From: an uncultured Chlorobiaceae bacterium
GTDB taxonomy: Bacteria; Bacteroidota; Chlorobiia; Chlorobiales; Chlorobiaceae
DNA length: 35,479 nucleotides
Assembly: GCA_903940125.1 (NCBI GenBank)
Contig: CAJAJL010000066.1
Coordinates: 1-35,479, forward strand
Direction of reading: 5' to 3'
Shown: positions 2,746-28,667 of the stretch, piece after piece
How positions within the stretch are numbered: the stretch's first letter is position 1
Layout of the letters: each line of letters begins with the position of its first letter
The notes under the pieces: generated by a model
Databases searched by the model: none
Seen by the model: only the letters and a program-made list of their open reading frames with translations
Told to the model about the DNA's origin: nothing
Program-made: the position numbers and the translations under genes

Positions 2746-2967
2746 ATGCGTGCTACGGTAACAAAAATTGGTAATTCAACAGGCGTTATCCTGCCCAAGG
2801 CAGCAGCAGATCGCCTTAAGGTAAAGCAGGGTGATGTTGTATTTTTAACGGAAATGCCGACAGGGTACATGGTAACACCCTACGATCCGGAATTTGCAGA
2901 GCAAATGGAGGCAGCCCGTCGAGGCATGTCTGAATACCGGAACGCTCTGCATGAGCTTGCCAGATGA
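2746..2967 (+). CDS. AbrB/MazE-type antitoxin of a Doc module
   Basis: This 73-residue protein has an N-terminal SpoVT/AbrB swapped-hairpin DNA-binding domain (MRATVTKIGNSTGVILPK, residues 1-45). The C-terminal tail (FAEQMEAARRGMSEYRNAL) would wrap the toxin. It is expected to bind the palindrome just upstream and neutralise the Doc protein encoded next. Its stop overlaps the toxin start by four bases (ATGA), giving translational coupling. A strong ribosome binding site precedes the ATG. Confidence 0.9.
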   Translation: MRATVTKIGNSTGVILPKAAADRLKVKQGDVVFLTEMPTGYMVTPYDPEFAEQMEAARRGMSEYRNALHELAR

Positions 2968-3359
2968 CTTGGCGCTGGCTTCTGGATGGGGTAGTCATTG
3001 CCATACATGACGAACAAATTGCTTTGCATGGTGGAATCACCGGAATTCGCGATGAAGGTCTTTTGTCATCAGCCCTTGCTCGCCCGAAACAGAAAGCTAA
3101 TTACGGTGATTCTTCCGTCTTTGATGTCGCAGCAGCCTATGCCTTTGGCATTATTCGTAACCATCCTTTTGTGGACGGCAACAAACGCACAGCGTTTCTT
3201 GTTGCCTATGTGTTTCTGAGTATTAACGGATGGGATCTGAGGTCACGTGAAGTCGAAGCTGTTAACGCGGTTATTGATTTGGCGGCAGGTGAAATGGATG
3301 AACCCTGTTTTTCTGACTGGCTTAAAAACAAGTCAGTTATCCGGGCAGCACGGGAATAA
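2964..3359 (+). CDS. doc: Death-on-curing (Doc) toxin, Fic fold
   Basis: This 131-residue protein has the Fic/Doc signature HPFVDGNKRTA at about residues 67-77, with catalytic His67 and the nucleotide-binding GNKR. Doc of phage P1 is a kinase that phosphorylates elongation factor Tu and stops translation. A similar activity is inferred here from the Doc-type length and the AbrB-type partner. The core looks intact. The last codons (VIRAARE and stop) lie in a segment repeated after the next module at 4170. Confidence 0.9.
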   Translation: MTWRWLLDGVVIAIHDEQIALHGGITGIRDEGLLSSALARPKQKANYGDSSVFDVAAAYAFGIIRNHPFVDGNKRTAFLVAYVFLSINGWDLRSREVEAVNAVIDLAAGEMDEPCFSDWLKNKSVIRAARE

Positions 3360-3380
3360 GAAGTGAACGACTGAAAACAC
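3336..3380 (+). repeat. Diverged direct repeat, copy 1 (doc 3' end)
   Basis: About 40 of 45 positions match 4170-4214. Copy 1 covers the last codons of doc plus downstream DNA. The second copy would encode FVIRASRK and a stop, against SVIRAARE and a stop here, so the repeat seems to derive from a doc-like gene end. Confidence 0.7.
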
Positions 3381-3569
3381 TTTGTTGCTGCTGACGTGGA
3401 GCACTGCGGTGCACAGTTTCTTCAACTTTTTCGGCAGTATTGGCTAACTGAAAAGTAAAGTGGTGTTTCTTCTTGTCGAAAAAAGAAACGATAAAGGCAA
3501 AAGCTTTGCGAAGCATCTCTCTTGCTGTTTTTTGCTTGAGCTGCCCCTGAACTGCTGTATCAAAAACAA

Positions 3570-3603
3570 TTGCGTTTTGCTTTTTACTGTGCTACATTGT
3601 AGC
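3570..3603 (+). promoter_or_regulatory. Promoter and palindromic operator of the RelB/YafQ module
   Basis: GCTACA and TGTAGC form a perfect palindrome around a single T at 3591-3603. It overlaps a TACATT -10 candidate (3593-3598) that lies 17 bases after TTGCGT (3570-3575). This is a typical position for an operator bound by a RelB/DinJ-type antitoxin. A GGAGG ribosome site follows at 3610-3614. Confidence 0.55.
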
Positions 3604-3623
3604 TACAAAAGGAGGATATTGAT

Positions 3624-3887
3624 ATGATTGAAAATTCTGTTGTCAGGGCAAGGATTGACGCCGTAACGAAGGCTGAGGCTTCCGCTGTACTCGCTTCCAT
3701 AGGGCTTACCGTGTCCGATGCCGTAAGGCTGATGTTGAAACGCGTTGTTGCTGAAAAGGCATTGCCTTTTGAGCCGCTCATTCCCAATGCAGAAACGATT
3801 GAGGCCATTAAAGCCGCACGACGTGGAGAACTCACTACAGCCGCTTCTTTGGATGGATTGTTTCAGGGTCTAAATGCGGACGATTAA
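3624..3887 (+). CDS. RelB/DinJ-family antitoxin
   Basis: This 87-residue protein has the DinJ pattern: an N-terminal ribbon (VVRARIDAVTKAEASAVL), then LASIGLTVSDAVRLMLKRVV of the ribbon-helix-helix fold. Its C-terminal toxin-binding region is about residues 50-87. It should repress its own promoter at the upstream palindrome and neutralise the YafQ-like toxin. It overlaps the toxin gene by 14 bases. The gene has an AAAGGAGGAT ribosome site. Confidence 0.88.
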   Translation: MIENSVVRARIDAVTKAEASAVLASIGLTVSDAVRLMLKRVVAEKALPFEPLIPNAETIEAIKAARRGELTTAASLDGLFQGLNADD

Positions 3888-4155
3888 ATATACCAGCCGA
3901 TTCAAGCGTGACTATCGCCGCGAGAAATCAGGGATACACGGCAGGAAACTTGACGCACTCTTGAAGGCTATCCTTGTTCTTTTGGCAGAGGACAAGGCTT
4001 TGCCCCCTAATGCCGTCGATCATGCGCTGATCGGGACGTTGAATGATTGCCGTGATTGCCATATCAGGCCTGATCTTATTTTGATCTACCGCAAAATTGA
4101 CTACACCATTCTTGAACTGGTGCGACTTGGCTCGCATAGCGAATTGGGGTTATGA
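3874..4155 (+). CDS. YafQ/RelE-family mRNA interferase toxin
   Basis: This 93-residue protein carries the YafQ pattern: SRFKRDYRRE near the start, LLAEDKALPPNAVDHALIG and DCRDCHIRPDLILIYRK in the middle, and LGSHSELGL at the end. His88 in GSHSEL corresponds to the catalytic histidine of E. coli YafQ. The family cuts mRNA on the translating ribosome. Gene order and overlap with the DinJ-like antitoxin support the call, and no damage is visible. Confidence 0.9.
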   Translation: MRTIKYTSRFKRDYRREKSGIHGRKLDALLKAILVLLAEDKALPPNAVDHALIGTLNDCRDCHIRPDLILIYRKIDYTILELVRLGSHSELGL

Positions 4156-4169
4156 CGCAGTTTTCTTTT

Positions 4170-4214
4170 GTTATCCGGGCATCACGGAAATAAGAACTGA
4201 ACGACCGAAAATAC
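4170..4214 (+). repeat. Diverged direct repeat, copy 2 (downstream of yafQ)
   Basis: This is the partner of 3336-3380, with about five mismatches in 45. It lies in the non-coding gap after the YafQ-like gene, so it is a leftover doc-like tail and not part of a live gene. The two copies flank the RelB/YafQ module. Downstream to 4400 I see no gene. Confidence 0.7.
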
Positions 4215-4409
4215 CCCATTTGGTTGCTCGGAGATTTTTCTGCGATTTTTTTAAAGGATCGATGAAAGTTGAACATCTTGTTATTGATTTCAGCCTTTTT
4301 ACACCGGTTGGTTCATGTTTTTGTTAAATTGAACAGCGCTCCCTTCAGTGGTTGTGAGTATTAAAAATTTTCTGCCGTTTTCCTTTGAAATTTTATTTGG
4401 TATGTGGTA

Positions 4410-5564
4410 ATGCGTATTGCTATTACTCCCCAAGTTCTTGAGTGGGCGATACAAAGGTCTCGCCGACAGGAGAAATTGGAACATAAATTCAAAAAAATAG
4501 GCGAGTGGCTTAGCGGAACGGCTCAGCCAACTTTTCTTCAACTTCAGGAATTTGCAAAAGCTGCCACGGTTCCGTTTGGATATTTGTTACTCACAAGCCC
4601 ACCTGAAGAAAGGTTACCTATCACTAACTTCAGGACATTGACAAGTGGGACTGTTCAAGATTTCAGTCCTGAACTTCTTGATACCGTTTACAAGATGCAA
4701 CAGCGGCAGGCTTGGATGCGGGATTACTTGATTGAGCAGGGGCATAGTCCATTACCCTTTCTTGGCTCCGCATCAATTGCGGATAATCCTGGAGTTATTG
4801 CTGCACAAATCAGGAATGTATTAGGTATTAATGACGACTGGGCAAAAAGTCAGCCATCCTGGTCCGATGCATTAAGAGGGCTGGAGCGAAAGATAGATGA
4901 GGCCGGAATTATGGTTATGGTTAATGGTGTGGTTGGGAATAACACGCACCGCAAACTGGATCCTCAAGAGTTCAGGGGATTTGTCTTGGTTGATCAATAT
5001 GCGCCCTTGGTTTTTGTTAATGGGGCAGATGGAAAAGCAGCTCAGATGTTTACTTTGGCTCATGAGCTGGCTCACATCTGGCTTGGTATCAGTGCTGCAT
5101 TTGATTTACATGGACTGCAACCCGCAGTTGATTCTGCCGAAATGGTTTGTAACCAAATTGCCGCTGAATTTCTTGTTCCAGCAACACTACTGATAAATCT
5201 CTGGCCTGTAATTGGAGGCAATGCTGCTCGCTTTCAAAATATAGCAAGGCATTTTAAGGTTAGTGAGATTGTTGCTGCGCGAAGATGCCTGGATCTTGGG
5301 CTCATAGAACGAGAGGCGTTTTTTAATTTTTATCGTGACTGGCAAAGTAGAGAGGTTGAGCTTGCAGCGAAAAAAAAATCTGATGCTGGTGGCGGTGATT
5401 TTTATCCTGTACAGAACCTGCGCATTGGTAACCGCTTTGGGCAAATGTTGATTCAATCGGTTCGTGAGGGGAAAACAGCTTATACCGAAGCTTATCATTT
5501 AACAGGATTGAAGTGTGATACATTTCAGACATATGCTGATGAGATATTTGGGAAGAAAGTTTGA
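4410..5564 (+). CDS. ImmA/IrrE-type metallopeptidase domain protein (COG2856), antitoxin-like
   Basis: The 384-residue protein has an N-terminal HTH-like segment (about 1-60: WAIQRSRRQEKLEHKFKKIG, then EWLSGTAQPTFLQLQEFA). A ImmA/IrrE zinc-peptidase domain follows, with HELAH at about residues 218-222. The C-terminal part (about 330-384) resembles the tail found in regulators paired with DUF4411 proteins. Such regulators form toxin-antitoxin pairs, probably as the antitoxin and autorepressor. The ATG at 4410 fits best, but GTG at 4404 in the same frame is possible. The downstream gene starts within its stop codon (TTGA overlap). Confidence 0.85.
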   Translation: MRIAITPQVLEWAIQRSRRQEKLEHKFKKIGEWLSGTAQPTFLQLQEFAKAATVPFGYLLLTSPPEERLPITNFRTLTSGTVQDFSPELLDTVYKMQQRQAWMRDYLIEQGHSPLPFLGSASIADNPGVIAAQIRNVLGINDDWAKSQPSWSDALRGLERKIDEAGIMVMVNGVVGNNTHRKLDPQEFRGFVLVDQYAPLVFVNGADGKAAQMFTLAHELAHIWLGISAAFDLHGLQPAVDSAEMVCNQIAAEFLVPATLLINLWPVIGGNAARFQNIARHFKVSEIVAARRCLDLGLIEREAFFNFYRDWQSREVELAAKKKSDAGGGDFYPVQNLRIGNRFGQMLIQSVREGKTAYTEAYHLTGLKCDTFQTYADEIFGKKV

Positions 5565-6067
5565 GTAACTCTTTAATATTTCTATTGGATGCCAATGTCT
5601 TGATTAATGCCGCACGTCATTATTATGCCTTTGATATTGCCCCTGTATTTTGGGATAAATTGTTAATTCATGCTGATGATGGGAAATTAAAAAGTATTGA
5701 TCATGTAAAGGATGAAATTAATCGTGGTTCTGATGAATTAGTTGATTGGATAAATGGGTCATTTATTGATTCTTTTGTGCCATGTGACGATGCCCTGGTA
5801 CTTGCTAAATATGCTGAAATTATGGTATGGTCTCAAAGTCATGTGCAGTACTCACCTTCAGCAAAGGCTGAATTTGCTCAGTTTGATCTGGCTGACTCTT
5901 GGTTAGTTGCCTATGCTGCTGTTTACCATTATGTTGTGGTAACTCACGAGGAGTATAATTCGACTATAAGAAGAAGGATCCCTATTCCTAATGTCTGTGA
6001 TGCTTTTAATGTCCAGTATCTTAATACATTTGCAATGCTTCGCTATTTAAGAGTAAGGCTTGGATAA
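5561..6067 (+). CDS. DUF4411 PIN-like protein, probable toxin
   Basis: This 168-residue protein begins SLIFLLDANVLINAARHYYAF, the DUF4411 version of the PIN-domain start with acidic Asp10. A later acidic site (EFAQFDLADSWLVAYA) and a VVVTHEE strand follow. PIN domains are usually Mg-dependent ribonucleases, so this is the probable toxin partner of the ImmA/IrrE regulator. The start is TTG at 5561, overlapping the upstream stop, so expression is likely coupled. It is the last gene before an IS remnant. Confidence 0.85.
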   Translation: MSNSLIFLLDANVLINAARHYYAFDIAPVFWDKLLIHADDGKLKSIDHVKDEINRGSDELVDWINGSFIDSFVPCDDALVLAKYAEIMVWSQSHVQYSPSAKAEFAQFDLADSWLVAYAAVYHYVVVTHEEYNSTIRRRIPIPNVCDAFNVQYLNTFAMLRYLRVRLG

Positions 6068-6166
6068 AAATCAAGACCTGGAAAGCAGGTTATATGCAGG
6101 TACTCATCGCGAATTAGTCCGTTAAAGCTTTCAATAAGGGCATTATCCGTCGGCGTAACGATGTTT
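6061..6166 (-). pseudogene. IS3-family transposase remnant (C-terminal integrase fragment)
   Basis: The minus strand encodes NIVTPTDNALIESFNGLIRD followed by EYLHITCFPGLDFYP. This matches the region around the catalytic glutamate of IS3-family OrfB ('tPtDNafiESFNgklRdEcL'). The reading is not preserved upstream or downstream, so it is a small remnant. It differs from the OrfB of the intact element at 7637-8881 (which has [17 protein letters not shown]), so a second IS type once sat here. Confidence 0.75.
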
Positions 6167-6733
6167 ATTGGTAGTTCATTTGTGTTGACCATGTTGCTAC
6201 AGCCCTTGCCCCTCTCCTCCTGTTGCTGGCAGATTCAGCTTCTCCTCACGGATCAGCTTACAGTTCCCTGCGGGTACGTTTACCAATAGCTTCACATAAG
6301 GCAATTACTTATCCTGCATGTACTGGCGGTCTCAACTGACTGAACAGTTGGTCTGTTTGTCAGACAACTCCACAACAAGACTTTCACTTCGCACACTCCT
6401 ATAGGCCCTATCGGTCGTATATGTCCTATGCTCTTCTGGTTTCAAATCAGGGGAGGATGATGTATTCGAGCGGATGGAAAGGAAGTTGAGCAAGAATTAT
6501 AAATAGCAAAATCGGTAAGGTTAGTTGGACGCTGGAGATTTCGCGGGAGAGAAGAGGTTCATGGGCTGGTATGTGATAGCTTTAATACCTATAAAATACA
6601 TTATCACAACCAAAAAGGAACAAGTAGATTGCCAATATTGATTTCATTCTGTGATGATTTATCTGGGTTGTATGGATTTATTTTTGGATTTATTCAAAAA
6701 TAAATATATTCATCAATGAATAAATTCTAATAC
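6167..6733. other. Non-coding gap between IS remnant and NTPase operon
   Basis: No credible coding frame was found. The stretch holds the second copy of the 35-bp element and may include further degenerate mobile-element sequence between 6190 and 6390. The last 130 bases before the NTPase gene are AT-rich and presumably hold its promoter, but I could not pick one pair of -35/-10 boxes. Confidence 0.4.
6395..6429. repeat. 35-bp dispersed repeat, copy 2
   Basis: Same orientation as copy 1 at 2558-2592, with three differences. It lies just after the IS3-family remnant and before the NTPase operon. Confidence 0.75.
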
Positions 6734-7683
6734 TTGGAGACTGTTATGAAGCTTGGTGGTTCCGCAACTGGAGAAGAGTTTTTTGGCCGCGATCAGGAAC
6801 TGACAGACCTTTGGCATTACCTGGAAACCGACCATATTCTTTTTCCCGGTGTTCGTCGTCTTGGCAAAACCTCCATTCTGCAACGATTGGAAGTCGAGGC
6901 GGTTGAGCACGGCCTCCTGGCTAAATGGCTGGATGTCTCGAACATCAATACAGCGAAGGGATTTATCGCGCTACTGGACTGCGAGTTTCCTGAAAAATCA
7001 ATCAATCGCTTCTTCTCTGACAAGACGCAGCAGGTTGGCCGCTGGCTCAAGGGTGTCCGGAAGATAGGCGCTACTTTGCCAGATGAGGTTGGTGGTGTCG
7101 AATTCGGTATCGAATTTGCTGGAGAAGCAGCGCCGGAATGGACAAAGGCAGCAAATTCAGTGCATTCGAGGTTGCGCAATCAACCTTTGTTGGTACTGCT
7201 CGATGAGTTCCCTGTGATGCTGGAAAAGCTTATTCAACGGGATCGTCAAGAGGCCGAGCAAATTCTCGCCTGGTTGCGTATTTGGCGGCAATCGCCGGGA
7301 ATCTGCCGCTTCGTCTTCACCGGCTCTATCGGTCTGCAATCCTTGCTGGAGCGCCATGCTCTTGGTGAAACCATGAACGACTGCTTCCTCTATCCTCTGG
7401 GGCCTTATAAACAGGAGGAAGCGCGCGGCCATTGGCGATATTTTGCTCCTGTCGCACGCCAAACTCCCTGGCATGTAGCGGAACCGGTGATCGACCACGC
7501 TCTGAGACGAGTTGGTTGGCTGTCGCCCTATTTTCTTAGCCTACTACTTGATGAAAGCATGAACGTTGCGCGTGAGCGAAGGCAGCAATATGCCGTAGAT
7601 GTGACAAGCAAAGCAAGTGAACTTGCTATATTTTCGTGGACAGGGTAAGAAGCCATATCTTCAAACAAAAGGAGATATGAGAC

Positions 7684-7995
7684 ATGACACAGACAGGTAA
7701 CGAGAGTCGCAGACAGTACAGCAAAGAGTTCAAGGTTGATGCAGTTGAGTTGATGATGCGCAGTAATAAATCAATCACAGAGACAGCTGCCAGTTTAGGA
7801 ATCAGGCCTGATTTGCTGAGCCGGTGGAAAAAGGAATATTCAGCGAACAAAGCTGCTCCTTTTCCCGGCAGCGGGCATCTGAAAGATCCAGAAGAAGAGC
7901 GGTTCCGCAAGATAGAACGAGAACTTCGAATAGTTACTGAGGAACGAGAAATATTAAAAAAAGCACTTGCTGTGTTCTCAAGGACACCCTTCTAA
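7684..7995 (+). CDS. IS3-family transposase OrfA
   Basis: This 103-residue HTH protein contains [19 protein letters not shown], then [20 protein letters not shown], the DNA-binding helix-turn-helix of InsE/OrfA proteins. A helical leucine-zipper-like tail ([20 protein letters not shown]) follows. A GGAG-type ribosome site precedes the ATG. Near its end is a run of seven A then G (7956-7963), a likely -1 frameshift site for making the OrfAB fusion transposase. Confidence 0.9.
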
Positions 7996-8873
7996 AATAT
8001 TCATTTATTGAAGGTTATAAGAGTACTTTTGCTGTCAGAACCATGTGCCGTGTTCTGAATGTTTCTGACAGCGGATATTACCAGTGGACACAGCGATCTG
8101 AAAGCAACCGTAGTAGAGAAACCAGGAAAGTGAAAGAAGCCATCATAAGGATCCATAAGGAAAATCGTGAAATCTATGGTAGTCCTCGGATTGCCGTTTG
8201 CCTGCAAGAGGAAGGTTTTCGGTGTAGTAAACCAAGGACAGCCCGATTAATGCGAGCTATGGGGCTTCGGTCTAAAGTGGCTAAAAAATTCAAGGTAACG
8301 ACAGACTCAAACCATAAGGAACCGATTGCTCATAACCTTCTGGATCAGGTGTTTGTGGGCGATTTTATCAATGACGCATGGACGAGTGATCTGACGTATG
8401 TTTGGACTGGCAGTGGCTGGCTCTATCTGACGGTCATTATGGATCTGTACAATCGTGAAATTATCGGTCACTCATTCAGCAAGAGAATGACGACTGAAAC
8501 AACGGTAAATCCAGCTCTGGATATGGCATTGATGCGCCGGAAACCACCTCGTGGTGTCGTTATTCATTCGGATCGAGGTATCCAATATGCGAGTGTATCC
8601 TTCAGGAAGAAGCTTGCGAAACACGGTCTGATTCAGAGTATGAGTGGCAAAGGTAATTGCTATGATAACGCCGTCACAGAAACCTTTTTCAAAACCCTGA
8701 AAACTGAATTGGTGTATACAGAACACTATCGAACGCGAGAGGAGGCCCGTCACAGTATATTCGAATTTATTGAAGTATTTTACAACAGGAAACGGAAGCA
8801 CTCAACGTTAGGGTATAAATCACCCGTTGAGTTTTTACGTTATAATCAACAACCAATAGTTATGGCTTCTTGA
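7941..8873 (+). CDS. IS3-family transposase OrfB (DDE integrase)
   Basis: Independent initiation could occur at ATG 8043, giving 276 residues. The frame is open from 7941, and frameshifting at A7G would join it to OrfA through KYSFIEGY, a segment conserved in IS3 fusions. The HTH_21 region ([14 protein letters not shown]) leads to the rve core. DDE residues are visible as [17 protein letters not shown] and [12 protein letters not shown]. The end [12 protein letters not shown] is standard for IS3 integrases. No internal stops or frame breaks were seen. Confidence 0.92.
7956..7963 (+). promoter_or_regulatory. Probable programmed -1 frameshift site (A7G)
   Basis: Seven A followed by G lie where orfA codons TTA AAA AAA GCA overlap the orfB frame. 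A slip of -1 moves translation from the orfA frame into the orfB frame, which is the usual IS3-family mechanism. Confidence 0.7.
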
Positions 8874-9029
8874 TGTGTCCATTTTTTTGTTGCAAGTCCA
8901 ATCGCCGCGCCGAGCGGTTGCAAGATCTTTTGGTGCGTTTGACCGACGAAGGCTATACCAGTCCGCCTGACAAAAACAAGCGCGTCCAGTTTCTCTCATT
9001 TCCTTTGCGCGATTGGTGGAACCGAAACC

Positions 9030-12011
9030 ATGTCTGATAACATTTCAACTTATAGCCAGCCGGCTGGCGGATTCGCCGCTATTAGCAAGTACAACCCGCA
9101 TCTTTGGAGTGCGGACCAGTTACGCGCCATTTTCGTTGCACGGAAAAACGAATTGGCCGACCTGTTGCATACCCTGCGCACTACGTCTCTGGACACGGTA
9201 GGCCAGCATGTCTTGCTGGTCGGCGCTCGGGGTATGGGTAAATCCACTCTTATGCGACGTTTTGCCCTGGCCGTGGAAGATGACCCTGACCTATCTAACG
9301 CATGGCTACCCCTGCGTTTTCCGGAAGAACAATACACTGTGGCCACGCTCGGCCAGTTCTGGGCCAATGTGCTCGACAGTCTGGCCGATGCCTTGCAACA
9401 CTTGGGGTACTCGGTCAGCGAGCTGGATGCTGCAGCAGAACGCATCACCGCCCTGCCCGCCGCCGAGCAGGCTGCTGCCTACCTTATTGCTATTGACCAT
9501 TTCGCTGACGAACGCGGGCAGCGTTTGCTCCTTTTAGTGGATAACACAGATCTCATGCTCCACAACATCGGCCGAGATGCCCACTGGGCCCTGCGCGCTA
9601 CCCTTCAAAGCAATCCCCGCCTGTTCTGGGTCGGTGGCAGCTACCAGAGCCTAGAAGCGGATAGTGACTACCACGATGCCTTTCTCGATTTTTTCCGCGT
9701 CATAACCCTGCGCCCTCTTCGCTTAGAAGAAATGGCTCAGGCGCTCCAGGCTCTTGCCGAAACCTTTGGCGGCAAGGTGGCACGCCAGGAGATGGAACGG
9801 CAACTCACCGCCCAGCCGGAGCGATTACCAACCCTGCGCCAGCTCTCCGGCGGCAATCCACGCACCACAGTCATGCTTTACGAGCTTTTCACTAACGGTC
9901 AGAGAGGCAGTGTTCGAAGCGACCTAGAAGCCCTGCTGGACAACATGACGCCACTCTACAAAGCGCGCATGGATGCTTTGGCCGATCTGCCGCGCAAGCT
10001 GCTTGCCCACATCCTCGAATACTGGGCGCCGATTCCGCTCAGCGAACTGGCGCGCATATCCCAGGTGCCCAAGACCAGCATCAGTCCCCAATTGCAACGC
10101 TTGGAACTGGAAGGGCTGATCGTGAAGAGCTTTCTGCATGGCACCACCCGTAGCGGCTACCAAGCGACCGAACGCTTTTTCAATATCTGGTACCTTATGC
10201 GTCTTTCACCTCGTCGGCAGCGTACGCGTCTCACGTGGCTTGTGGAGTTTATGCGCCTGTGGTTCAGCAGCGACGAACTCTGTACCCTTGCACAACAGCG
10301 GATGCAGGACGAGCAAGCCGCTTTGCGCTCAAACCATGACTTGGAATACGACCGTGCCCTTGCAGATGCGCTGCCGTCTCAAGCGCCCGAACGTCATGTT
10401 CTGCGCTGGACGCTGCTCAAACAACTAAAGGTAAACAGCAGCCAGTTGCTCGAGCTATTCGATCTGGAGGGTGCTGACGCCGATTTCAAGGGCGCTGACG
10501 ACTACCTTCGGCGTCTGGCAGAGCTGCCGGCACGGTTGCGCAATTGTCCCCATGTGGCAACCGAAGAAGAGAAAAACCACTGGGTGGAAGCGGTCATCGG
10601 ATCGATCAGCATGGGTCTTGCCGAGAAAGAGCGCGTGGCCGAAACGGTCGTGAGTTTGAGCCGCTATGAATACGACGAATTGTTGAAGATGTTTGACGGA
10701 GAGTACAAGTACTGGGAGAACAGGTTCGGAACCGCTGCTGCGCAATCCATACGCACTGCCGTACTCAGTCACGATTTCTTTCCGGACATGCTCGACTCAC
10801 ACCTCGCTTACGAGCAAATTCATGCCTTTTTCGCTAACAAAAGAGAGGCTTTGCGTTTGATCAGCGAGCTGTTTTACAACTTACATCAAGATGAGTGGTG
10901 CTACAAAGCCCAGATGCTGGCCTGGATGACCTGGCCAAAAGATCCGAAAATTGCATTTCGATGCGCTAGTTTGCTGCACAGAAAGCTGGGCCGCTACGAG
11001 GAAGCGGAAGCGGCATATCGTCAGGCCATCGCCTTAGACGAAAAAAATGCATATCCATGGAACGGCTTGGGCAATCTGCTGCAATACAATCTCGGCCGCT
11101 ACGAGGAAGCGGAAGCGGCATATCGTCAGGCCATCGCCTTAGACGAGAAGTATGCATCTCCATGGAACGGCTTGGGCAATCTGCTGAAAGAACAGCTCGG
11201 CCGCTACGAGGAAGCGGAAGCGGCATATCGTCAGGCCATCGCCTTAGACGAAAAAAATGCATATCCATGGAACGGCTTGGGCAATCTGCTGAAAAATTAT
11301 CTCGGCCGCTACGAGGAAGCGGAAGCGGCATATCGTCAGGCCATCGCCTTAGACGAGAAGTATACATCTCCATGGAACGGCTTGGGCAATCTGCTGCAAT
11401 ACAATCTCGGCCGCTACGAGGAAGCGGAAGCGGCATATCGTCAGGCCATCGCCTTAGACGAGAAGTATGCATATCCATGGAACGGCTTGGGCAATCTGCT
11501 GCAATACAATCTCGGCCGCTACGAGGAAGCGGAAGCGGCATATCGTCAGGCCATCGCCTTAGACGAAAAAAATGCATATCCATTGGCAAATGTTGCACGG
11601 ATGTTGGCGCGGCTTGGACGTAAGGCGGATGCGGAGTCGTTTTATCGTGAATCAGTATTCAAGGCTACTAAGGACAATCAAGAATTACTCCTGCAAGCGC
11701 ATCTCTTTCTGGGTAATCGTCAGTTGGCCATGGATGCCCTGCTAGCTTTGTCAAAGGCGGCGCAGGTTGGCAATCAAATCGCGTTTTTCCGTCTCAAAGA
11801 ACAGGTCTGGGAGTGTCACGAGCTGGGCTTGGGTGAACGCTTGGCCGACTGGATGGCGGAGAGCGAGTCGGCTTTGTTCCTGGCGCCTTTCATTCAGGCG
11901 CTTTACACCCTTTCGGACGCGGAAAGGAAGTTGCGCGACCTGCCTCTGGAAAGCCAGCAGATGGCAGACGAGATCGTGCGCATAGGACGTTTGCGGCAAG
12001 AGAAGAAGTGA
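9030..12011 (+). CDS. STAND-like P-loop NTPase with winged helix and TPR array, 993 aa
   Basis: The N-terminal domain has Walker A GARGMGKST (Lys71) and Walker B RLLLLVDNTD (Asp171, Asp174). A winged-helix-like segment follows (about 325-375: LSELARISQVPKTSISPQLQ, RLELEGLIVKS). A helical middle (about 390-640) leads to six TPR units from about residue 653 to 860 and a helical C-terminus. The family resembles signal-transduction NTPases in which repeats sense a ligand and the NTPase relays it; the ligand and output here are unknown. It overlaps the broken upstream ATPase by eight bases, so the two were one operon. The DNA looks more GC-rich than the neighbours, which suggests transfer. The frame itself is intact. 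Confidence 0.85.
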   Translation: MSDNISTYSQPAGGFAAISKYNPHLWSADQLRAIFVARKNELADLLHTLRTTSLDTVGQHVLLVGARGMGKSTLMRRFALAVEDDPDLSNAWLPLRFPEEQYTVATLGQFWANVLDSLADALQHLGYSVSELDAAAERITALPAAEQAAAYLIAIDHFADERGQRLLLLVDNTDLMLHNIGRDAHWALRATLQSNPRLFWVGGSYQSLEADSDYHDAFLDFFRVITLRPLRLEEMAQALQALAETFGGKVARQEMERQLTAQPERLPTLRQLSGGNPRTTVMLYELFTNGQRGSVRSDLEALLDNMTPLYKARMDALADLPRKLLAHILEYWAPIPLSELARISQVPKTSISPQLQRLELEGLIVKSFLHGTTRSGYQATERFFNIWYLMRLSPRRQRTRLTWLVEFMRLWFSSDELCTLAQQRMQDEQAALRSNHDLEYDRALADALPSQAPERHVLRWTLLKQLKVNSSQLLELFDLEGADADFKGADDYLRRLAELPARLRNCPHVATEEEKNHWVEAVIGSISMGLAEKERVAETVVSLSRYEYDELLKMFDGEYKYWENRFGTAAAQSIRTAVLSHDFFPDMLDSHLAYEQIHAFFANKREALRLISELFYNLHQDEWCYKAQMLAWMTWPKDPKIAFRCASLLHRKLGRYEEAEAAYRQAIALDEKNAYPWNGLGNLLQYNLGRYEEAEAAYRQAIALDEKYASPWNGLGNLLKEQLGRYEEAEAAYRQAIALDEKNAYPWNGLGNLLKNYLGRYEEAEAAYRQAIALDEKYTSPWNGLGNLLQYNLGRYEEAEAAYRQAIALDEKYAYPWNGLGNLLQYNLGRYEEAEAAYRQAIALDEKNAYPLANVARMLARLGRKADAESFYRESVFKATKDNQELLLQAHLFLGNRQLAMDALLALSKAAQVGNQIAFFRLKEQVWECHELGLGERLADWMAESESALFLAPFIQALYTLSDAERKLRDLPLESQQMADEIVRIGRLRQEKK
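10986..11592 (+). repeat. Six tandem 105-bp units encoding 35-residue TPRs
   Basis: Units start at 10986, 11091, 11196, 11301, 11406 and 11511. They begin LGRYEEAEAAYRQAIALDEK and are nearly identical in DNA. The differences cluster at two places: residues just after DEK (NAY, YAS, YTS, YAY) and the end of the first helix (LLQYN, LLKEQ, LLKNY). The sixth unit diverges after DEKNAYP. The frame on the opposite strand across the array is a shadow. Confidence 0.95.
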
Positions 12012-12706: not shown

Positions 12707-12988
12707 ATGGGCTTTTTCTGGAATGAAGAAAAAAACAACATCTTGAAAGAAGAAAGAAAAATTTCTTTTGAGAGAATTGTTGTCGCAATCGAAGAGGGCC
12801 ACTTGATAGACGTACTGGAGCATTCAGATAAAGAAAAATATGGTAACCAATTGATACTGATCGTTGAAATTGATGGTTATGCAGTATGTGTTCCCTCTGT
12901 TCTTGAAAAAAATGGAGACTTTTTCTTGAAAACATTGTATCCCAGCAGAAAGTATACCAAAGATTATAAATTAAGAGGGAAGTTATGA
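12707..12988 (+). CDS. BrnT-like/DUF4258-like toxin, 93 aa
   Basis: The start FFWNEEKNNILKEERKISFE is the BrnT-style 'fxWdeeKn xxL kxxrgisFe' pattern. The end FFLKTLYPSRKYTKDYKL matches the terminal strand with conserved Ser-Arg-Lys. BrnT-fold proteins are RelE-like ribonucleases. The next gene overlaps by four bases (ATGA) and looks like the cognate antitoxin. The toxin-first order is typical for BrnT-type modules. Catalytic competence cannot be judged without an alignment. Confidence 0.7.
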   Translation: MGFFWNEEKNNILKEERKISFERIVVAIEEGHLIDVLEHSDKEKYGNQLILIVEIDGYAVCVPSVLEKNGDFFLKTLYPSRKYTKDYKLRGKL

Positions 12989-13266
12989 GCGACTATAACG
13001 ATAAAGAACTTCTTGATTCAATTGAATCTGGAGAATGGAAATCAGTAAATAATTTTGATGAAATTAAAACAACATTAATGAAGGCTGCATCAGAAACAGC
13101 CTTAAAAGATTACAGGATCAATGTCAGGATTTCTAAAAGAGATGTTGAGGTATTAAAAACAAAAGCATTGGAAGAAGGGATTCCATATCAAACACTCGTT
13201 ACCAGTATTTTACATAAATATGTAACAGGAAAATTGACGGATGTGAGCAAAAAAAATTTCACCTGA
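12985..13266 (+). CDS. Antitoxin, ribbon-helix-helix-like, partner of BrnT-like toxin
   Basis: The 93-residue protein has an acidic N-terminal region (ELLDSIESGEWKSVNNFDEI), likely toxin-binding. Then comes NVRISKRDVEVLKTKALEEG with IPYQTLVTSILHKYVTGKL, a CopG/RHH-like DNA-binding module at about residues 45-85. A GAGGGAAG ribosome site sits just before the ATG, within the toxin gene end. It likely represses the pair through DNA upstream of 12707. Confidence 0.75.
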   Translation: MSDYNDKELLDSIESGEWKSVNNFDEIKTTLMKAASETALKDYRINVRISKRDVEVLKTKALEEGIPYQTLVTSILHKYVTGKLTDVSKKNFT

Positions 13267-19588: not shown

Positions 19589-20116
19589 ATGCATAAAGAA
19601 AAATCGCACATAGCGATCCGGATTGCGGATCTTATGCAGGGTGTCCATAAGTTTGATTTTACCTGCAACGCTTCAGATTTTGAAGGATGGCAGTTAACTG
19701 AGGCTGGTTTTACCAGGGATATAAATATCAGTGTGGTTGTTGATAAAAGTGAAGACGAAATAACCGTCACAATTGATACTGCCACTGTAGGAGATTTCAC
19801 CTGCGATATCTGTCTTGCGCCGATATCCAGAACTGTTACTGGATCGCTCAAGCTCTATTATTTATGTGATATACCTGTCGAAGAGGCTCAAAACTGGAAT
19901 GAAGAGTACCGTTTCCTTGACAATAAGGCAGATTCAATAGATCTAACCGGCGATGTATGTGAAACCCTGCTTCTTTCATTACCATTGAAGGTCGCCTGTA
20001 CTGATAATCCACATTGCAAGCTTTTTGGAAGTGATGAAAAAAATGAAGAGTCTCAGGCCGATGAAATAAGTTCATGGCAGGAGTCTCTTGAACAACTGAA
20101 AAATAAGTATCGTTAA
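19589..20116 (+). CDS. YceD/DUF177 family protein
   Basis: This protein of 175 residues precedes rpmF, the usual place for YceD (DUF177). It has the CDICLAPISRTVTGSLKLYY motif (Cys-x2-Cys in the middle), a typical mark of the family. The family acts in 23S rRNA maturation or ribosome assembly in some bacteria and plants, though the mechanism is unclear. I chose MHKEKSHIAIRI at 19589 over an upstream ATG at 19553, because the upstream leader is not protein-like. The C-terminus is acidic and helical. It is the first gene of the plus-strand fatty-acid operon. Confidence 0.85.
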   Translation: MHKEKSHIAIRIADLMQGVHKFDFTCNASDFEGWQLTEAGFTRDINISVVVDKSEDEITVTIDTATVGDFTCDICLAPISRTVTGSLKLYYLCDIPVEEAQNWNEEYRFLDNKADSIDLTGDVCETLLLSLPLKVACTDNPHCKLFGSDEKNEESQADEISSWQESLEQLKNKYR

Positions 20117-20142
20117 CCGACTATAAATAGAAGAGTACCGCT

Positions 20143-20334
20143 ATGGCCAATCCTAAAGCCAAAATGTCTAAATCCAGACGGGATAAAAGACGTGCCCAGT
20201 TCATTGCCCGTACCAAACCTGCAACCACGGTCAATTGCCCTAACTGCGGCGAACCAACCCTTCCGCACCGTGCCTGTCGCCATTGCGGTCACTACCGTGG
20301 GAGATGCGTTGTCAATAAATTAGCAAAAAGCTGA
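20143..20334 (+). CDS. rpmF: Ribosomal protein L32
   Basis: This 63-residue basic protein starts [18 protein letters not shown], the L32 signature. It carries a zinc-ribbon with [18 protein letters not shown], so this is the Cys4 form. It is part of the large ribosomal subunit. It lies 26 bases after yceD and 27 before plsX, a conserved order in bacteria. Confidence 0.97.
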
Positions 20335-20361
20335 TAACCCTAACAAGACAAAAGCTCCATC

Positions 20362-21387
20362 ATGTTGACCATTGTTGTTGACGCCATGGGCGGAGATAAC
20401 GCTCCTGCCTGTGTGATAGAGGGAACGATTCAAGCTCTGCAGGAAAGCGGTAACAGGTTTACAATCGTGCTTATCGGCCAATCGGAAAAAATTGAACCGT
20501 TGCTTGCCGAGCATGATATCACTAATCTCAACCTGAGATTTCTGCACGCCCCTGAAGTTGTGACGATGGAGGACATTCCGGCAACCGCTGTCAAAACAAA
20601 ACAAAACTCATCGCTTGTCAAAGGCTTGCAGCTCTGCAAGTCAAAACAGGCACAGGCATTTGTCAGCGCAGGCAATACTGGCGCACAGATGGCCGCTTCG
20701 CTCTTTGTCCTCGGCCGGATTCCCGGTGTCCTACGCCCGACCATTTATGCCTATTTTCCACGATTAGGGGAAGGATTGACCAATATTGTGGATGTCGGGG
20801 CAAATGTTGACTGCAAGCCGGAAAACCTTGTCCAGTTTGCAGAAATGCTCACCATCTATCAGTGCTATGGTGCAGGAATAGAAAAACCGCTTACGGGGTT
20901 ACTCAATATCGGAGAAGAAGAGGGTAAGGGGTCTGAAATGCTCAAACAAACGTTCCGACTTCTTAAAGAGGCTGACAGCAAAGGAAAAATCAACTTCATT
21001 GGAAACATTGAGGGGCACGACATTCTGAAAGGACGAGCAAGCATAGTCGTTTGCGACGGCCTCGTGGGAAATACAATCCTGAAATTCGGCGAGAGCATCC
21101 CTGAATTTCTTGGAACCCTGTTCAAAGAGTCACTCGATAAATTAATTGGCTCTGCACAGATGGATCTGGCAACAGCAAAACTTACGACCGGTATGTTCAA
21201 GGGAATGCTTGAACCGTTTGATGTCGAAAAATTCGGTGGTGTTCCCTTTCTTGGAGTTGACGGTATCTCTATTGTCGGCCATGGCCGATCTTCTTCAAGG
21301 GCGATCAAAAACATGATCTATATGGCTGAGCATATGATCGAAAGACGAGTCAACGAACATATCGCGGATGTTCTTTCCGAAAAGTAA
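20362..21387 (+). CDS. plsX: Phosphate acyltransferase PlsX
   Basis: This 341-residue protein opens [20 protein letters not shown], the standard PlsX N-terminus, and ends in [10 protein letters not shown]-like helical sequence. It contains [19 protein letters not shown] and [18 protein letters not shown]. PlsX makes acyl-phosphate from acyl-ACP and inorganic phosphate, the donor for PlsY in phospholipid synthesis. It is a peripheral membrane enzyme. Length is typical. Neighbours rpmF and fabH are the usual ones. Confidence 0.97.
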
Positions 21388-21483
21388 TATTGTTCTATCC
21401 GCACCCCTCTGCAGCTGAGTTATTACAGACAAAGCTTCAGGGTATTTTTTTCTTATCCTGCATGAAATAACGCCCAACAACGC

Positions 21484-22473
21484 ATGAAAGCTGCAATTAC
21501 GACTACAGCAAAATATTTACCTGACAGTATTCTGAGCAATCATGACCTGGAACTCATGTTCGAAACCAACGATGAGTGGATTCGGTCAAGAACAGGTATC
21601 AGCGAGCGCAGGATACTCAAGGATCCTGAAAAAGCAACATCATATATGTGCGGGGAGGTAGCCCGGCAGCTGCTTGAAAAAAGGCAGATAGGGGCCGATG
21701 AGATAGACTTGATTATTGTCGCGACCATGACACCGGATATGCTCTTCCCGTCCACAGCATGTTTTGTACAGAGTATAATTGGCGCAACTAAAGCATGGGC
21801 ATTCGACCTTAATGCCGCCTGCTCCGGATTTCTCTTTGCACTGAACACAGCATCTCGCTTTATTGAATGCGGAGTCCATAATAAAATCATGGTCATCGGT
21901 GCAGATAAGATGTCGTCGGTTATTGATTATACTGATCGTTCGACAGCCATTCTTTTCGGAGACGGTGCCGGCGGTGTCATCCTTGAACCAGCAAAGGAGG
22001 AGGGATTCGGCATTCTTGATACCCGTATGTATTCCGATGGAGAAAATGGCAAAAATCATCTTCTTATGACTGGCGGCGGAAGCCTTCATCCGGCATCCCA
22101 TGAAACAGTCGATAAGCGAATGCACTACATATCTCAGGACGGTCGTCAGGTTTTCAAGTCAGCAGTCATTTCCATGGCCGAGGTAGCAGCTGAAATCATG
22201 AGCCGTAATAACCTTAAGGCTGAAGATATTGACTACCTGGTTCCTCACCAGGCTAATCAAAGGATCATCAACGCGACAGCAGAACGGATGGGTATTGATG
22301 ATGCAAAGGTCGTTTCAAACGTAGCTCGCTATGGTAACACGACAGCAGGCACCATCCCGATCTGCCTTGCAGAACTTGATGAACAGAAGAAATTGCACTC
22401 CGGATCAAACCTGGTGCTGGTCAGTTTCGGCGCAGGATATACCTGGGGCGGCATCTACATAAAATGGCAGTAA
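21484..22473 (+). CDS. fabH: Beta-ketoacyl-ACP synthase III (FabH)
   Basis: The 329-residue protein begins the fatty-acid cycle by joining acetyl-CoA to malonyl-ACP. Catalytic triad motifs are visible: Cys in [15 protein letters not shown] (near residue 112), His in VPHQANQRI (near 255), and Asn in [10 protein letters not shown] (near 285). The substrate-binding EWIRSRTGI motif is near residue 30. The gap of about 96 bases after plsX may hold a promoter or terminator, but none stands out. Length fits the family. Confidence 0.97.
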
Positions 22474-22507
22474 TATCGCTTCACCCTTTATCAGAACGAT
22501 CGCATTC

Positions 22508-23416
22508 ATGAAAGCATTTGTATTTCCGGGACAGGGTTCCCAGTATTGCGGAATGGGCAGGGATATTTATGAAAATTTCCCTGTTGCCCGCACCATGATG
22601 GAAAAGGCAAACGAACTTCTCGGTTATTCGATAACCGACATCATGTTTTCTGACAATGAAGAGGAGTTGCGTCAGACAAAATATACCCAGCCGGCTATTT
22701 TTCTTCACAGCATAGTAGTAGCTGCACTCCTTGGCGGCAAGGATATCACGATGACTGCAGGCCACAGCCTCGGCGAATACACCGCGCTCTGCTTCGCCGG
22801 ATCTATCGGATTTGATGATGCATTACGTATTGTAGCTAAGCGAGGTGATCTCATGCAGAATGCAGGCAGGCAAAATCCCGGAACCATGGCTGCCATTATA
22901 GGCATGCCTGATAACGCTCTTGAAACTCTGCTTGCCGAAGCTGGTCTTGCAGGTATCATTCAGGCAGCGAATTTCAACTCTCCCGGTCAGGTTGTTCTTT
23001 CCGGTGATATTGCTGCAGTAAAAAAGGCTGTTGAACTTGCACCTTCCAAAGGGGCCCGCATGGCAAAAGAGCTGGTTGTTTCCGGAGCATTTCATTCCCC
23101 GCTGATGAAACCTGCAGAACAGGAACTTTCAGCCGCACTTGATCTCATTGATATACAGCCTGCAGCAATACCTGTTTGCATGAATGCCATTGCCCGACCT
23201 GTCACCAGCGCATCTGAAATAAGAAAAAACCTGATTCTGCAGCTCACCAGCTCTGTTCTCTGGGCACAGTCAATTGAAGTGATGGTGCAGAGTGGTATTT
23301 CAGAATTTGTTGAAATCGGACCTCAAAAAGTTTTGCAGGGTCTGATTAAACGAATCGATAAAACAGTCACAATCCGGGGCTTTGACACCGCCGCGGACAT
23401 TCAGCCCCTTATTTGA
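22508..23416 (+). CDS. fabD: Malonyl-CoA:ACP transacylase (FabD)
   Basis: This 302-residue protein moves malonyl groups from CoA to ACP. The N-terminal [14 protein letters not shown] motif and the active site [14 protein letters not shown] (nucleophile Ser near 88) are intact. The second catalytic residue is His in SGAFHSPLM (near 197). It follows fabH with a gap of about 34 bases, so the two are likely co-transcribed. Confidence 0.97.
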
Positions 23417-23457
23417 GACTTGTACTACGAGGTCATTAACATCAACCGAGTGAAACT

Positions 23458-24195
23458 ATGTTTGAAGGAAAAATTGCCATTGTAACCGGAGCTGCCAGAG
23501 GAATCGGGCAGGCTATCGCTTTTAATCTTGCATCTCAAGGTGCAGATATTGTCCTTTGCGACATCAAGGCTGAATGGCTTACAGAAACTGCAGAAGGAGT
23601 AAAAAAGCTCGGCAGAAAAGTCTTCTGTTTTGAACTTGACGTCACCAACACCGAAGCTGTACAAAGTGTCTTTGCAGCTATTGCAGCTGAGACTGGCAGA
23701 ATTGATATTCTCATAAACAATGCCGGCATAACGCGTGATGGCCTGCTGATAAGAATGAGCGAAGAAGACTGGGATGCAGTTTTGACAGTTAATCTGAAAG
23801 GAACCTTTGCCTGTACAAAGGCAGTCAGCCGCACCATGATGAAACAGCGTTCGGGCGCTATTGTCAATATCGCTTCCGTTATCGGAATCATGGGGAACGC
23901 CGGTCAGGCCAATTATGCCGCATCAAAAGGCGGAGTTATCGCCTTCACCAAATCGATCGCCAAAGAACTTGCATCCCGCAACATAAGAGTAAATGCCGTG
24001 GCGCCGGGATTCATTGCATCCAAAATGACCGATGCACTCTCTGAAGAGGTTAAACAGAAGATGCTTGATGTTATTCCACTCTCTCGCTTCGGCCAGCCGG
24101 AAGATGTTGCAAACGTCGTATCATTCCTTGCCGGTGATCAGTCAGCATATATTACAGGTGTTGTCATCAACATCAGCGGCGGCATGGTCATGTGA
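23458..24195 (+). CDS. fabG: 3-oxoacyl-ACP reductase (FabG)
   Basis: This 245-residue short-chain dehydrogenase uses NADPH to reduce 3-oxoacyl-ACP. The nucleotide loop is [12 protein letters not shown] (from residue 9), the structural motif is [11 protein letters not shown] (near 87), and the catalytic set is Ser in NIASVIG plus NYAASKGG (Tyr and Lys). The C-terminal [17 protein letters not shown] is typical of FabG. The gene lies between fabD and acpP, which supports the fatty-acid role over other SDR functions. Confidence 0.96.
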
Positions 24196-24196
24196 T

Positions 24197-24224
24197 TTGG
24201 GCAAGCTTATTTTCTTTGTATATT
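24197..24224 (+). promoter_or_regulatory. Possible promoter for acpP
   Basis: A TTGGGC box (24197-24202) and TATATT (24219-24224) are separated by 16 bases in the 87-base gap between fabG and acpP. Extra promoters before acpP are common because ACP is made in large amounts. The match is moderate. Confidence 0.35.
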
Positions 24225-24282
24225 GACTGACTTTTTCAAATTTTTTTATCAGCAACCAACTATTAATCTGGAGAACAACACA

Positions 24283-24519
24283 ATGACTGAATCACAAATC
24301 AAGGATAAAGTTTACGATATTATCGTCAGCAAAATGGGTGTCAACAAAGATCAGATCAAGCCTGAATCAAAATTTTCAGACGATCTCGGTGCAGATTCCC
24401 TTGATACCGTTGAATTGATCATGGAACTTGAAAACGAATTTGGAGTACAGATACCGGATGAAGATGCCGAAAAGATCGGCACAGTCCAGCAGGCCATCGA
24501 TTATATCCTTAAAAAGTAA
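24283..24519 (+). CDS. acpP: Acyl carrier protein
   Basis: This 78-residue acidic protein starts at ATG 24283, with a GGAG element (24270-24273) before it. The upstream in-frame extension of 20 residues is not ACP-like. Phosphopantetheine attaches at Ser39 in [15 protein letters not shown]. The rest matches bacterial ACP in length and charge. It carries the growing acyl chain for the Fab enzymes encoded on both sides. Confidence 0.97.
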
Positions 24520-24565
24520 TCAAGCGTATCCACATATAAGCAGGCAAACGTTTAAATCAAAACAG

Positions 24566-25819
24566 ATGGGTCAGGAGCTCAAAAGAATAGTTGTTACCGG
24601 AATAGGTGTGTTGTCACCTATAGGGCTTAATAAAGAGGAGTTCTGGGACTCTCTTTATCAAGGAAAGAGCGGTGCGGCTCCTATCACCTATTTTAATGCA
24701 GCTGATTTTGCCACAACCTTTGCCTGTGAATTGAAAGGATTTTCAGCCGAGAACTATATCGACAGAAAATCCGCAGACAGAATGGATCCTTATTGTCAGT
24801 ATGCGGTTATTGCTGCAGCTCAGGCACTGAAAGATTCAGGACTGGAACTGAAGGAGATCGATCCGCTCAGAATCGGAGTTGTGCATGGCTCGGGAATTGG
24901 AGGCATGACCACTTACGACAAACAGTTCAGGAACTATCTTGAACGTGGACCGAGACGGATCAGCCCCTTCTTTATTCCAATGCTCATTCCGGACATTGCT
25001 GCAGGCCAGATTTCAATCCGACACGGACTTATGGGTCCGAACTATGCTACGGCTTCCGCCTGTGCGACATCGCTGCACGCCATCATTGACTCCTATATGC
25101 TCATTCAGACTGGAATGGCAGACTATATGGTCGCCGGTGGATCAGAAGCGCCGATCACACAGTTGAGCGTCGGAGGTTTCAATGCTGCCAAGGCTCTCTC
25201 TACGGCTAACGACCGACCACAACAGGCATCACGTCCATACGACCGCGACAGGGATGGCTTTGTCATGGGTGAGGGAGGCGGATCGTTGATCCTTGAATCA
25301 CTTGATTCAGCAAAAGCACGCGGAGCAAAAATTTACGGAGAAATAGTTGGAGTCGGAGCTACTGCAGACGCCTATCATTTGACAGCGCCGCACCCTGAAG
25401 GAATTGGTGCAGTCAACGCTATGAAAAATGCCCTTGCCTTAGCAGGAATTTCGTCCGACAAAATAGATTATATCAATACCCACGGCACATCGACACCCCT
25501 CGGTGATATCGCTGAAATTACCGCCATTAAAACCGTTTTTGGTGAACACGCTTACAAACTGAGTGTCAGTTCGACTAAATCTATGACAGGACATCTTCTT
25601 GGTGCTGCGGGAGTTGTTGAATCGATTGCCTGTCTGCTTGCGTTGCAGAACCAGACTGTTCCTCCGACAATCAACTGCGATAATCTTGACCCGCAGATTG
25701 ATCTCGATGTAACACCAAACACACCCGGACAACGCTCGTTAGAATACGTCCTTAACAATGGCTTCGGATTTGGGGGGCATAACGCCTCACTGATTTTCAG
25801 GAATGGTTCATCGCTCTGA
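24566..25819 (+). CDS. fabF: Beta-ketoacyl-ACP synthase II (FabF)
   Basis: This 417-residue protein starts [20 protein letters not shown] at 24566; an in-frame extension further upstream overlaps acpP and is not credible. It condenses malonyl-ACP with acyl-ACP during elongation. Active-site motifs are Cys in [13 protein letters not shown] (near 168), His in [11 protein letters not shown] and His in [22 protein letters not shown] near the end is typical. It lies 46 bases after acpP. Confidence 0.97.
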
Positions 25820-25836
25820 TCAATCCTCTCCAGCCA

Positions 25837-26658
25837 ATGGTGCAATTCTGGCAACAACTTACATCTTTTGCATTTCCCCGATCAGAGGATCGTTTTATAC
25901 CTTACAAAATCGAGGACAATCATCCCTTGATAACTTCAGGTCTATCCGAAAAAACCATTGACTACCTGCAAAGGCTTGTCGGATCCCCCGGAATCAACCT
26001 CCCGATTTACCTTACCGCCCTGACTCACCGTTCTGTTGTACATGACCCTGCCACATCATCCATTATCGAATCAAACCAGCGTCTTGAATTTCTCGGTGAC
26101 TCAGTACTTGACCTGCTGATTTCCGAATATCTTTTTAAACGATTTCCCGAAAATGCAGAAGGAGAGCTTTCAAGTAATCGGGCAAAAATAGTCAATCGCA
26201 AATCCCTTGCCGGATTTGCTCGAAGTATTGGTTTGGGAGACTATCTTCTTATTGGTGATTCTGCTGATGAACGCAAAATCAGAAACAGTGAATCAGCACT
26301 TGCCGACGCTTTTGAGTCACTGATTGGAGCCATTTATCTGGACAGAGGAATCCATGAAGCATCTGACTTTATCAGCCGTCATATTATTGAACATGTAAAT
26401 TTCACCACAATCGTTTCTGCCGAACATAACTACAAAAGCCGTCTCATCGAGTACACCCAGTCGAACCACCTCCCACCGCCGGTATACTCAGTTATAACCG
26501 AAGCCGGGGCCGAGCATGAAAAAACCTTTACAATCGGTGTAACATGCACCGATCATTTTCTTGGCAAAGGCACCGCTCAGAGAAAAAAGGATGCAGAGCA
26601 ACTTGCAGCCAAAGAGGCTATGGAACGTCTCGCCGCAGACGATATCGAATGGAGCTGA
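25837..26658 (+). CDS. rnc: Ribonuclease III
   Basis: The 273-residue protein has the RNase III signature NQRLEFLGDSVLDLLISEYL (near residues 80-99). A second acidic site is in ESALADAFESLIGAIYLD. A double-stranded RNA-binding domain is at about 200-270 (NYKSRLIEYTQSNHLPPPVY through AQRKKDAEQLAAKEAM). It cuts double-stranded RNA, including rRNA precursors. The N-terminal extension of about 40 residues is longer than in E. coli. It begins 17 bases after fabF. Confidence 0.96.
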   Translation: MVQFWQQLTSFAFPRSEDRFIPYKIEDNHPLITSGLSEKTIDYLQRLVGSPGINLPIYLTALTHRSVVHDPATSSIIESNQRLEFLGDSVLDLLISEYLFKRFPENAEGELSSNRAKIVNRKSLAGFARSIGLGDYLLIGDSADERKIRNSESALADAFESLIGAIYLDRGIHEASDFISRHIIEHVNFTTIVSAEHNYKSRLIEYTQSNHLPPPVYSVITEAGAEHEKTFTIGVTCTDHFLGKGTAQRKKDAEQLAAKEAMERLAADDIEWS

Positions 26659-26746
26659 CCATTGTTATGGAGTCTGTACTGTAATAATTTTTTTAATGCT
26701 TAATTTAAGAGGTAATTTTCAACCTAAACGGAAGGAGGATTGCGGT

Positions 26747-26875: not shown

Positions 26876-26904
26876 ACCAGCCTGACATTAAGGTACACAC
26901 ACCA

Positions 26905-28580: not shown

Positions 28581-28667
28581 GAGTCATGCATAAAATTAAC
28601 TGAATTTTCACCTAACTCATTGTGCAGTACAAATCCATGTTGTTATACTTAAAAAAAACTCGAGGAT

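Follow-up and report, generated by a model that had tools for sequence, protein, structure and literature searches.

A conserved pair of STAND-type NTPase genes with a near-identical TPR array in an uncultured Chlorobiaceae bacterium: a putative NLR-like sensor

What do two overlapping nucleoside triphosphatase (NTPase) genes do when one is broken, the other is complete and carries a run of almost identical repeats, and both lie among toxin–antitoxin-like modules? The question is raised by a 35,479-nucleotide stretch of DNA from an uncultured Chlorobiaceae bacterium (assembly GCA_903940125.1, contig CAJAJL010000066.1; the window, hereafter, is this whole stretch), in which a small ATPase gene (gene 1) overlaps a gene for a larger NTPase with C-terminal tetratricopeptide repeats (TPRs; gene 2). 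We propose, with moderate confidence, that the pair is an NLR-like two-NTPase conflict sensor, probably directed against phages or mobile elements. The directly supported steps are the conservation of the two genes together, their shared fold, the conserved P-loops, the structure of the repeat array, the sites at which it varies, the transfer of the pair and the repeated loss of gene 1 only.

Conservation and fold of the gene pair

Searching species-representative genomes with a profile built on the core of gene 2 gave 80 gene 2 loci. A homologue of gene 1 is the next gene upstream, in the same orientation, at 67 of them, and of the 13 loci that lack it two start at a contig edge. The intergenic distance in the 61 full pairs runs from -55 to +33 bp, and the -8 spacing of the window, where the gene 1 remnant terminates ...NRNHV-TGA at 9037 and the ATG of gene 2 stands at 9030, recurs in intact relatives. 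Protein distances of the two genes co-vary closely (Mantel r 0.977 over 54 loci; best of 2000 permutations 0.17), and in a search of 394 genomes seeded with gene 1 all 25 strong matches (E<=1e-40) adjoin a gene 2. Hosts include Chlorobiota, Pseudomonadota, Acidobacteriota, Campylobacterota, Planctomycetota, Cyanobacteriota, Bacteroidota, Myxococcota and Chloroflexota, and presence is patchy, with the locus in 20 of 65 genomes of the genus; none was found in E. coli at the DNA level. Beyond a Clp_N gene in Chlorobiaceae, no family is common to the nearest neighbours, and thus no conserved third gene was found. A sequence-only reading of this DNA had suggested that an ATPase/NTPase–TPR pair might recur elsewhere, which these data strongly support, and its description of the two genes, a GxRRxGKT loop (here GVRRLGKT) in the first, an eight-base overlap, and a complete 993-residue NTPase with winged helix and TPRs in the second, is likewise borne out.

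In gene 2 an NTPase domain (AAA_16, E 8e-12, exceeding the Pfam cut-off) is followed by a MarR-like winged helix (residues 328-366), a linker, the TPR array, for which domain search called six repeats, and a helical tail whose motif PLxxAL...ExxExAxDV is common to the whole family. Its model (predicted local distance difference test, pLDDT, 86.8) aligns over residues 19-390 to the archaeal Walker ATPase 2qen (Z 19.4, 4.0 A over 321 residues), a match which came only from a second aligner, Foldseek being dominated by TPR structures. Gene 1, modelled from the intact relative L076 (mean pLDDT 89.5), aligns full-length to the archaeal Walker ATPases 2qen (Z 24.8) and 2fna (Z 23.2), with ORC2 next and then the NLR cores of wheat G10, NRC4, RPP1 and CED-4 (Z 18-20; over the whole chain, 19.8 for the wheat G10 resistosome and 18.1 for CED-4). 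A histone H2B match of the gene 1 profile is most likely helical noise. Since both predicted folds match 2qen, and gene 1 matches NLR and CED-4 cores full-length, the pair is, as modelled, two STAND-type NTPases of related fold.

The characters of STAND proteins are present, namely a P-loop NTPase core with helical and winged-helix domains (both models against 2qen, and gene 1 against NB-ARC and CED-4 cores) and Walker A, Walker B and GxP-type motifs. Gene 1 carries the P-loop GVRRLGKTS, Walker B LLLDEF and sensor GSIG, and RRxGK, DE and P are invariant in its family alignment; that of gene 2 conserves GxRGxGK and GGNPR, the latter preceding the winged helix. The residues of the P-loop do not vary in either family, nor does the Walker B DE of gene 1, whereas in gene 2 Walker B reads (D/E)N and the usual second acidic residue is missing; an invariant EExY after the second strand could take over its role. 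Gene 2 stays below the thresholds of the NACHT family (PF05729; 19.9 bits, gathering threshold 26.7) and of nSTAND_NTPase5 (PF25199; 20.4 bits against 34). As in NLRs there is a C-terminal repeat array, with TPR matches in 49 of 61 relatives and a predicted role in ligand sensing, but the NTPase domain begins near the frame start in nearly all relatives and the N-terminal effector or adaptor of NLRs is lacking.

The TPR array and its variation

Tandem Repeats Finder describes the array of the window as 105 bp x 5.7, with 93% matches. Across all full units 27 of the 35 codons are identical in DNA, and the eight variable codons form two blocks, one at TPR positions 32, 33, 34, 1 and 2 (with only silent changes at 32 and 33) and one at positions 12 to 14, both at or beside the positions that contact the ligand. 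The same tendency is seen more widely: in 13 arrays of 34/35-residue TPRs the within-array difference is 0.67 at positions 2, 5, 9, 12, 13, 33 and 34 against 0.30 elsewhere (permutation p 1e-5), and in five arrays of a 43-residue type it is 0.65 at positions 2, 5, 9, 12 and 13 against 0.23 (p 6e-5). These positions form the ligand face of TPRs and determine specificity (PMC1261162). The DNA-identical framework is a stronger sign than the variable positions, and points to recent homogenisation. The near-identity of the units was absent from the sequence-only reading.

Array type and length differ widely among relatives, and in L076 (1730-4606) the gene 2 array holds an RTX-like glycine/aspartate-rich stretch of GGNGNDII type. 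The possibility that the array is the target of a diversity-generating retroelement (DGR) was rejected, because the draft genome, 2.98 Mb long and in 129 contigs, contains no template repeat; this absence of any second, donor copy argues against a retroelement-driven mechanism, and the two reverse transcriptase genes of the genome both lie on other contigs.

The broken gene, transfer and surroundings

Gene 1 is damaged in the window (Table 1). The open reading frame that covers its 5' part (6734-7648; 304 residues) terminates within an IS3-family insertion sequence (IS), homology to relatives breaks off at 7614 and picks up again at 8903-8907, and 214-218 bp that three intact relatives keep are missing, the gap being filled by the IS3 element and short unrelated joints. 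The element is present as a single copy in the draft genome, and no target-site duplication was found at its ends. The earlier view that an intact IS3 element splits gene 1 is therefore correct as to the element, which does look intact, but the gene has also lost sequence and is not simply interrupted. Because of the insertion and this loss gene 1 is, as read from its sequence, a pseudogene here, and with gene 1 destroyed the system in this genome has probably lost its activity or survives only as an orphan sensor.

Table 1. Coordinates of the features of the pair, its insertion sequence and the ClpB-like neighbours in relatives
Feature	Position	Strand	Remarks
Gene 1, 5' part	6746-7614	+	STAND/MNS-type ATPase core, truncated; homology to intact 405-residue relatives ends at 7614
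IS3-family insertion sequence	7637-8881	+	terminal inverted repeats 17/21 bp; HTH_Tnp_1 and rve matches
IS3 orfA (HTH_Tnp_1)	7684-7995	+	
IS3 orfB (rve integrase core)	8043-8873	+	
Gene 1, 3' remnant	8903-9037	+	ends ...SFPLRDWWNRNHV stop; overlaps gene 2 by 8 bases
Gene 2	9030-12011	+	complete 993-residue putative STAND-type NTPase with C-terminal TPR sensor; frame, domain and model evidence
Gene 2 nucleotide-binding and winged-helix core	9084-10199	+	residues 19-390; family alignment and model
Gene 2 Walker A GARGMGKS	9222-9245	+	
Gene 2 invariant EExY	9324-9335	+	
Near-identical TPR array	10989-11583	+	five full 105-bp units and a partial sixth
Gene 2 C-terminal helical cap	11584-12008	+	family alignment, model
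Short ClpB-like genes in relatives	L028:426-1748; L129:2903-4225; L136:3175-4491; L143:3134-4456		

Breakage or absence of gene 1 with retention of gene 2 is found in several separate lineages, namely the window, G010 (a frame break), L078/L083 and a Moraxella plasmid. On that plasmid, from Moraxella osloensis (L175:3963-6008), an IS5-family transposase has independently interrupted gene 1 and gene 2 is intact. Plasmids of Agrobacterium and Sphingobium carry gene 2 without gene 1, and so do a Chlorobium clade and two relatives in which the TPR region is missing too. In gene 2 alleles of about 540 residues (L079:4846-6471, L078:6001-7626, L083:6001-7614) an in-frame deletion has removed linker and TPR array, with the frame still open; L079 keeps gene 1, and L078 and L083 have lost it.

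Transfer of the pair and its richer G+C content had also been suggested from the sequence, and both are upheld. G+C is 0.549 for 8882-12011 against 0.469 for 20000-35000, third-position G+C is 0.62 against 0.41-0.53 in neighbouring genes, and the codon-use distance, compared within the window, is 0.43 against 0.17-0.33. In the gene 2 tree the Chlorobiaceae clade of the window is nested within a betaproteobacterial clade (Accumulibacter, Azonexus) with support of 100/95 and better, and native Chlorobium copies lie far from it. This nesting, with the G+C-rich genes, indicates that the pair was acquired by transfer from Betaproteobacteria. The predicted toxin–antitoxin neighbours do flank it (RelB/YafQ at 3624-4155, M78 and DUF4411 at 4404-6067, and a weak BrnT/CopG match at 12707-13266), and a Fic gene joins these modules (cluster 2964-6067 and 12707-13266). 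Upstream of gene 1, at 6080-6200 on the minus strand, a stretch judged by eye only resembles the terminal part of an IS3-type integrase (SFNGLIRDEYL) and suggests the remnant of another element. No protein of the window matches an effector family.

Some relatives are adjoined by Qat genes and a kinase, others by genes for a Pycsar effector, cyclase, AbiE, TIR, E2/E1 and JAB proteins, and further ones by cyclases and ThiF, or by DNA methyltransferases. Lone gene 2 copies on Agrobacterium and Sphingobium plasmids (L176:1286-9195, L177:1043-7383, L178:1579-5966) adjoin cyclase, ThiF or E2/E1, JAB, TIR, Pycsar effector and AbiE genes. Some Chlorobium copies sit in ordinary, apparently vertically inherited chromosomal sites near gatB/obgE-type genes, and native Chlorobiaceae loci have, directly upstream of the pair or of a lone gene 2, a short ClpB-like gene (Clp_N and first AAA, about 440 residues, ending within the middle domain), with no distal ClpB half seen nearby. 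A defence role, one of those first suggested, is plausible; some copies stand in defence neighbourhoods, others in ordinary chromosomal places.

Immune sensor, regulator or addiction pair

In the NLR-like conflict sensor that we propose, the TPR solenoid of gene 2 would read a protein or peptide ligand, recombination would keep the repeats near-identical while ligand-contact positions vary, and gain, loss and shuffling of repeats would re-mix specificity. Gene 1, a predicted bare STAND core of nucleotide-binding and winged-helix domains with neither sensor nor N-terminal effector, is probably made from the same message and most likely co-assembles with gene 2, and would carry out or relay the response once gene 2 is triggered. 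The bolder form of this proposal, a widespread and undescribed paired-NLR immune system of bacteria in which recombining TPR modules with their contact codons give an effectorless STAND sensor a combinatorial repertoire and a second, bare STAND protein provides the output, is more tentative and seems to us possible rather than probable.

Several observations weigh against an immune role. Ligand-face positions are variable in TPRs generally, so that the pattern alone is no proof of positive selection and relaxed constraint could contribute. An effector domain could be recognised in neither protein, and no PADLOC or NCBIfam family fits the pair; the best PADLOC NTPase matches cover partial regions only (gene 2, 21 bits to mad8; gene 1, 20 bits to PDC-S01), besides 33 bits to a generic TPR model. 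The count of PADLOC families among immediate neighbours of relatives, 44 in 102 proteins as against 4 in 80 random genes, favours that role, but only as an indication, given the redundancy of many of the 44 models and a small, taxonomically unmatched control. Several Chlorobium copies without gene 1 lie in conserved, non-island chromosomal loci, plasmid copies are few, and neither 50,697 phage records nor IMG/VR contained a match, on which ground carriage as phage or prophage cargo was rejected.

The sequence-only reading recognised no named system, and this holds: searches of the literature turned up the ingredients of the pair and not the pair itself, and, with no PADLOC or NCBIfam fit, a system already described was rejected. 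The anti-phage STAND proteins Avs/AVAST and bNACHT similarly join a STAND NTPase to a C-terminal helical or TPR sensor. They carry an N-terminal effector, such as a nuclease or protease, within the same protein, whereas the family of the window has no recognised effector, a conserved second STAND partner and no meaningful PADLOC match. The archaeal 2qen and 2fna proteins (Pfam ATPase_2-like, MNS clade) resemble gene 1 and the core of gene 2 in overall fold, but are stand-alone proteins at 13-18% sequence identity, and we know of no TPR partner for them. Plant sensor and helper NLRs offer an analogy only, being two adjacent STAND genes of which one has a fast-evolving repeat sensor, with CC/TIR effectors and leucine-rich repeats unlike those of the bacterial pair.

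Fungal NLRs of the Podospora HET-E type are likewise STAND NTPases with C-terminal TPR, WD or ANK repeats of high internal conservation, in which repeat number varies and the variable sites lie on the concave TPR face (PMC4986451); positive selection on that face and repeat-number polymorphism have been measured there (PMC4986451). Each of these receptors is a single protein, often with an N-terminal effector, in contrast to the bacterial arrangement of two NTPases with no recognised effector. The DGR-diversified STAND sensors of multicellular bacteria share an NTPase with a hypervariable C-terminal sensor, but there the reverse transcriptase acts on C-lectin domains (PMC10907252), while the window array has no template repeat elsewhere in its genome.

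Among the alternatives the one that survives best, though we think it unlikely, is a stress-sensing or regulatory STAND pair of MalT-like logic that would read a cellular ligand without any immune function, TPR turnover being ordinary repeat-array drift. It fits with the winged helix, with the absence of the pair from phages and nearly all plasmids, and with the native Chlorobium loci, where the neighbours of the pair or of lone gene 2, the ClpB-N-like gene and a set of housekeeping genes, stay the same in many genomes. It sits poorly with TPR framework codons that are identical in DNA while contact codons differ, with presence in only 20 of 65 genomes of the genus and with clear transfer, and no DNA-binding output domain is found besides the STAND winged helix.

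The recurrent loss of gene 1 invites a second alternative, a toxin–antitoxin-like addiction pair in which a harmful gene 1 is restrained by gene 2, so that gene 1 would be the first to go and would not persist without its partner. Both the broken or missing copies of gene 1 (in the window, G010, the Moraxella plasmid, L078/L083 and the Chlorobium clade) and the gene 2 neighbour of every strong gene 1 match agree with this, but the same asymmetry would also arise if gene 1 merely depends on gene 2 for its function. No toxin domain is present in gene 1, the two proteins are both conserved NTPases, and a diversifying sensor would not be expected of a simple addiction pair, which leaves this explanation improbable. 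That the locus is a decaying, functionless remnant whose repeats are alike through recent slippage is very improbable, because, for all that gene 1 is a predicted pseudogene here and that misassembly of the array is conceivable in a draft metagenome genome, gene 2 retains an open frame of 993 codons with all motifs, the differences between array units fall in two blocks, at or next to contact codons, and spare the other 27 codons, and intact pairs persist across phyla.

If the proposed paired, NLR-like sensor is real, bacteria of many phyla would rely on NLRs that work as two proteins and whose modular receptors can be re-mixed rapidly, in parallel to the incompatibility receptors of fungi and the sensor and helper pairs of plants. 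Such a sensor would then make it tractable to study, in bacteria, how the specificity of repeat receptors shifts and by what means an effectorless STAND protein signals.

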